Part shown: positions 34,281-34,647 of the stretch, piece after piece
Numbering within the stretch: the first letter of the stretch is position 1
Layout of the letters: the number at the start of each line of letters is the position of its first letter
Origin: Trichlorobacter thiogenes
GTDB taxonomy: Bacteria; Desulfobacterota; Desulfuromonadia; Geobacterales; Pseudopelobacteraceae
Direction: 5' to 3'
NCBI RefSeq assembly: GCF_900167465.1
Contig: NZ_FUWR01000014.1
Location: 1-64,000 of the forward strand
Length of the DNA: 64,000 nt
The notes under the pieces: model-generated
Told to the model about the DNA's origin: nothing
Database searches by the model: none
What the model saw: only the letters and a program-made list of their open reading frames with translations
Program-made: the position numbers and the translations under genes

Positions 34281-34568
34281 CTATGAGCAGGAAGAACCAA
34301 ACTCCGGAGAAATCACAAAACCTTCCCGCATACCAGAATTAACAAAGTCAATCACCTGACCATCCAGAAAAGAGTTCAGACTTTTTTCTGCAAGCAATTC
34401 AATCCCGTTCAATGTCAGCTTGTTATCATTTTCACCCGGCTCATCCAGAGCCAGCCCCAGACGGGGTCCGCCTCAACCAAAACCTTCAAACACCACCCGC
34501 AGCAGTTTGCCGGGGTTCTGGGCCAGAATCGGCTCCAGAGCTGTCTTTGCTGCATCCGTAATTTTCAT
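34281..34568 (-). CDS. HesB/IscA-like selenoprotein (in-frame UGA read as selenocysteine)
   Basis: A-type iron-sulphur carrier-like protein of 95 residues, readable only if the TGA at 34475-34473 (codon 32) is selenocysteine. Before the TGA the frame reads KITDAAKTALEPIL and LLRVVFEGFG; after it GGPRLGLALDEPGEND and NGIELLAEKSLN, ending GFVISPEFGSSCS and TAG. The TGA falls exactly where HesB/IscA-like proteins have their first cluster-binding cysteine (the G-C-G-G motif). HesB-like selenoproteins are known from Geobacter. An AAAGGAG ribosome binding site precedes the ATG. G/C-rich hairpins directly follow the UGA. Gene callers would split or miss this gene. A mutant pseudogene is possible, but the position argues against it. 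Confidence 0.85.
34431..34475 (-). promoter_or_regulatory. Candidate bacterial SECIS region after the UGA codon
   Basis: On the minus-strand mRNA, bases immediately after the UGA form CCCC-GUCU-GGGG (34466-34455, loop 11-14 bases after the UGA) and then GGCUC-UGGAU-GAGCC (loop 26-30 bases after). Bacterial SECIS elements need a stem-loop with a GU-containing apical loop soon after the UGA, and the first hairpin has one, although it is close to the UGA. Which of these SelB would bind is not settled from sequence alone. Confidence 0.45.
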
Positions 34569-34647
34569 AACGATGCTCCTTTAGAAGTATTCATATATCT
34601 GAATATATCAAGTGAGACTAACAAAAGCCAGAAAATTTTAAAAATTA

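Follow-up and report, generated by a model that had tools for sequence, protein, structure and literature searches.

Codon 32 of a 95-codon gene on the minus strand of the window (the whole 64,000-nucleotide stretch of DNA that was analysed) is a UGA that very probably encodes selenocysteine (Sec), and the gene would accordingly specify a HesB-like selenoprotein. Both the identity and the decoding were assigned by sequence comparison. The TGA is kept across many families and is followed by a covarying SECIS hairpin, which argues for a Sec codon rather than a recent nonsense mutation. The data support an easily missed Sec gene and place it in a large, class-wide HesB-like subgroup that scores under the curated naming models.

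The gene and its surroundings

The reading frame starts at the ATG at 34568-34566 and runs through 95 codons to the UAG at 34283-34281 (Table 1). The initial annotation had placed the gene correctly at 34281-34568 without stating the strand; the ribosome binding site that it described, the interruption of the frame by one TGA only and the residues that it quoted on either side of this codon (FEGFG and GGPRLGLALDEP) were all recovered. A plus-strand reading of the same interval was tried and gave no protein. In most relatives, an AAGGAG-type Shine-Dalgarno sequence is likewise found shortly upstream of the start. The gene is flanked by the convergent metG on one side and by a same-strand upstream gene on the other, which we take to resemble ppnP, and both neighbours are retained at the locus in several relatives of the genus.

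Table 1. Positions of the gene and of the signals in and around it
Feature	Position	Strand	Remarks
Predicted HesB-like selenoprotein gene	34281..34568	-	95 aa with Sec32, UAG stop; assigned from the frame with TGA read as Sec, PF01521 above the gathering score and a 32-sequence alignment
In-frame UGA, codon 32	34473..34475	-	Single one in the frame; position of the conserved IscA cysteine
Putative bacterial SECIS hairpin CUGGCUC-UGGAU-GAGCCGG	34436..34454	-	7 bp, 5-nt GG-containing loop; conservation and compensatory changes
Shine-Dalgarno AAAGGAG	34576..34582	-	7 nt 5' of the ATG
Cys94 codon	34287..34289	-	Sole conserved cysteine remaining of the C-terminal C-G-C motif (GSSCS)
Perfect inverted repeat TATTCA-N6-TGAATA	34588..34605	.	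Upstream of the gene; possible operator

The upstream inverted repeat is retained in close relatives only, and its sequence is not stable across the genus and family. The genome contains five perfect copies, and 18 places matched with one mismatch or fewer, compared to 4 for the reversed control pattern. These copies give a hint of a regulon. Of the other four perfect copies, one adjoins a thioredoxin gene (L034) and another adjoins L037, a rhodanese-like gene.

Decoding of the UGA codon

The selenocysteine machinery that the initial annotation had proposed to look for is present in the same genome, including tRNA-Sec (76.2 bits, gathering score 47), selB (331.5 bits), selA (609.5 bits) and an intact selD (C20:22388-23311), which itself has an in-frame TGA. 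A second selD-like gene of this genome, outside the window (G000:C37:64619-65453), also has an in-frame TGA and is split over two frames (open frames of 186 and 166 aa), suggesting a frameshift or a sequencing error.

Of 57 near genomes, 12 carried a copy with TGA at the position of codon 32, namely this genome and 11 others of the genus and family. When loci of genome_contigs were collected by peptide patterns that leave out the TGA codon, TGA stood at the Sec codon in 33/33, and the UxGP motif took the form FGUGGP in the window protein and in these 33 loci. Across the class, 71 of 277 genomes had copies with TGA (counted from the class search table), spread over many families; the wider phylum sample gave a match in 197 of 395 genomes, mostly with one TGA. 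Subgroup homologues that cover codon 32 all have TGA, except for six copies that belong to a single family (f15): the site reads GLGC(N/S)GP in three of them and ECSGP in a fourth, and the remaining two lack both Cys and Sec. The sequence conservation clusters around Sec32 (LRVVFEGFGUGGP). A tRNA-Sec over the cut-off was also detected in 62 of the 71 TGA-bearing class genomes and was not found in the other nine, most of which are incomplete MAGs; this co-occurrence has little power because tRNA-Sec is present in 221 of the 277 class genomes.

Two kinds of additional copies were also observed. In extra A-type paralogues of family f15 (L112 and L123), the key position holds a residue other than Cys or Sec (GGLMGP and KGIGMP) and the C-terminus carries cysteine clusters, and the related genomes G164 and G165 have a tandem pair of Sec-type HesB-like genes (L114 and L115) with TGA at the Sec site in both copies.

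The RNA directly 3' of the TGA can pair as CCC-GGG and then form a 7-bp hairpin with the loop UGGAU, starting 18 nt 3' of the UGA. Over 32 distinct sequences, 96.9% of the hairpin cells were paired, and compensatory changes occurred in 4 of the 7 pairs, for example from GC to AU at columns 25-37 and from CG to UA at columns 26-36. Cells changed on both sides numbered 17, compared to 4.9 in shuffles (0/500 shuffles reached 17), and slid controls were far lower. Synonymous codons were conserved as well: the mean major-codon frequency was 0.84 over codons 39-44 and 0.61 in the remainder of the gene; Leu41 was CTG in 32/32 and Ala40 was GCT in 23/23. Minimum free energy folding of the window sequence alone gave a z of -1.7, which by itself is not decisive, unlike the covariation. 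Phylum members that are more distantly related and pass the model NF038090 carry the same GGCTCTGGATGAGCC-type element. These comparative data strongly support a mechanism in which the SelB/tRNA-Sec system would read codon 32 as Sec, directed by the hairpin.

Two other readings of the codon were weighed against these data. That a small gene contains an in-frame stop and is absent from several relatives, including G002 (a genus member in a single contig, rated 99% complete), would fit a pseudogene in which the TGA ends translation and the remainder is a relic; yet the same TGA recurs in 71 genomes of the class across many families, the codons are intact and the protein is conserved 3' of it, the hairpin covaries, and the genome has the Sec machinery. 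The initial annotation had named two outcomes that would overturn its own proposal, a genome without the Sec machinery and a recent nonsense mutation, and neither was borne out; the nonsense mutation was already refuted by the conservation of the TGA, and we give the pseudogene a negligible probability. The frame is also open if TGA is translated as tryptophan, so general suppression or a changed code could be considered, but such decoding is very improbable in a genome with tRNA-Sec, SelA and SelB and with a covarying SECIS hairpin downstream of the codon. In addition, IscA has Cys at this position, and so do homologues of the Cys form within the class and phylum; an exchange of Cys and Sec is the usual pattern.

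Family, fold and candidate ligands

The evidence supports membership of the gene in a selenoprotein family known since 2006, within a divergent subgroup. Zhang et al. (2006; PMC1794560) listed HesB-like selenoproteins, with Geobacter sulfurreducens and Desulfuromonas acetoxidans among the species that have them, in agreement with the earlier statement that they are known in Geobacter, and a 2026 review lists the family under TIGR01911 with the motif UxGP (PMC13188914). The description of the gene as an unannotated type therefore held for the subgroup, which lies under the curated cut-offs, and failed for the family, which has long been known.

The window protein scored 64.7 bits with NF038090 (IscA_HesB_Se; 7.6e-18), under the cut-off of 85, and 37.3 bits with TIGR01911, under the cut-off of 66.35. 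The equivalog models for IscA (28.0 vs. a cut-off of 150.6), SufA (30.3 vs. 136.2) and ErpA (27.6 vs. 117) were not reached either. The NF038090 cut-off was passed by 0 of 277 Desulfuromonadia genomes but, at 115-150 bits, by four members of the phylum that share the Sec site; these NCBIfam cut-offs are annotation thresholds and not defining traits in the literature. In the tree, the Desulfuromonadia sequences and three Cys forms of family f15 grouped together on a long branch with good support (100/99), close to the NF038090-passing phylum members, with weakly supported deep forks, so that the subgroup may tentatively be placed as a divergent clade beside those members. Since the subgroup falls under the curated models, automatic annotation may miss such genes, truncate them or label them pseudogenes.

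With Sec treated as Cys, the domain search matched PF01521 at 8.5e-7 (29.6 bits, gathering score 26.3). The AlphaFold model had an A-type fold with a mean pLDDT of 81, and its nearest structures were those of E. coli IscA (1r94 and 1s98, TM 0.78-0.79). Sec32 aligned with the cysteine of the GC(S)G motif of IscA; the alignment and the fold thus support the claim that a cysteine normally stands at the TGA position. The 95-aa product is predicted from both to fold like IscA and to present Sec32 at the position of the conserved cluster-ligand cysteine.

At the C-terminus, GSSCS takes the place of Cys-Gly-Cys, and the only residues of ligand type are Sec32 and Cys94. The closeness of these two residues is putative in the model because residues 92-95 have a pLDDT below 50. 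Members of the Geobacterales branch end in SSC(S/A/C), SAC or ASC with one Cys; Desulfuromusa-type members carry SSCASGCSGC, and two or three cysteines are retained at this end in other class members. A Cys-Cys or a Cys right before a TGA at the C-terminus was seen in L065, L071, L073 and others. A second Sec at this end was considered and rejected for several relatives with CC-TGA ahead of a later stop (e.g., L063-L065, L114 and L115); the downstream sequence differs between the close genomes G164 and G165, the one pair compared, and the C-terminal TGA was therefore taken as an ordinary stop.

A profile search found no other A-type domain in this genome. Among the other order members sampled, it found none besides the HesB-like selenoprotein gene, with a model that is weak for this group and missed several copies detected by the search of the near genomes.

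Putative function and known systems

A possible role of Sec32 and Cys94, perhaps acting between the subunits of a dimer, is the binding of iron, of a [2Fe-2S] cluster or of a different soft metal, and we consider the chances of metal or Fe-S binding through this pair to be about even; the missing C-terminal Cys-Gly-Cys weakens the Fe-S part. Such binding would serve an accessory role under anaerobic conditions. The product probably does not act as the housekeeping Fe-S carrier, given that most of the relatives sampled in the order have neither the gene nor another A-type domain, and the patchy distribution also argues against an essential carrier. The HesB-like selenoprotein of Methanococcus maripaludis has been identified by 75Se labelling and mutagenesis (as cited in PMC11097638), and a disruption mutant still fixes nitrogen (PMC11097638). 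The proposal that a selenol ligand would alter Fe-S or redox chemistry relative to ordinary A-type carriers is plausible for this putative ligand.

The protein may instead be a redox enzyme, with selenenylsulphide cycling between Sec32 and Cys94 together with thioredoxin or a small thiol, and with the A-type fold as a scaffold only. The Geobacterales branch keeps Sec and one C-terminal Cys in place of the canonical three-ligand set, most uncharacterised selenoproteins probably have redox functions (PMC13188914), and the perfect repeat copies beside thioredoxin and rhodanese-like genes are suggestive at most. However, the protein has no CxxU, UxxC or TxxU motif, its conservation is focused on Sec32 as in A-type proteins, and other class members retain two or three C-terminal cysteines; we regard the redox enzyme as possible but somewhat doubtful. 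Unlikely, in our estimate, is a broader proposal that the Geobacterales branch is a distinct functional type, which would have lost the Fe-S carrier ligands and kept one Sec-Cys pair; selenium would then be indispensable for a new chemistry, either redox or the binding of soft metals, in organisms with no other A-type protein.

The family has been known for 20 years, and metal or Fe-S binding and redox chemistry are candidate functions for an A-type Sec protein. A near-invariant Sec at a Cys-ligand position, with no other A-type protein found, offers a clean test case for the contribution of selenium to the A-type fold.

Compared to known systems, the window protein shares with the HesB-like selenoprotein family a small A-type domain, Sec at UxGP, a bacterial SECIS directly downstream and an origin in anaerobic Thermodesulfobacteriota. 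It differs in that the Desulfuromonadia subgroup lies under the NF038090 cut-off, the window protein itself lies under those of both NF038090 and TIGR01911, and the C-terminus holds one Cys, rather than two or three, in the Geobacterales branch. The M. maripaludis protein (MMJJ_08070, PMC11097638), likened here by its description, is also HesB-like and contains Sec, but is archaeal. With the IscA/SufA/ErpA carriers, represented by E. coli IscA (1r94 and 1s98), the protein shares the fold, the placement of Sec32 at the conserved ligand-cysteine position and 29% identity over the structural alignment, whereas it has Sec for Cys, does not carry the C-terminal Cys-Gly-Cys, is encoded outside an isc or suf operon and scores far under the equivalog cut-offs.
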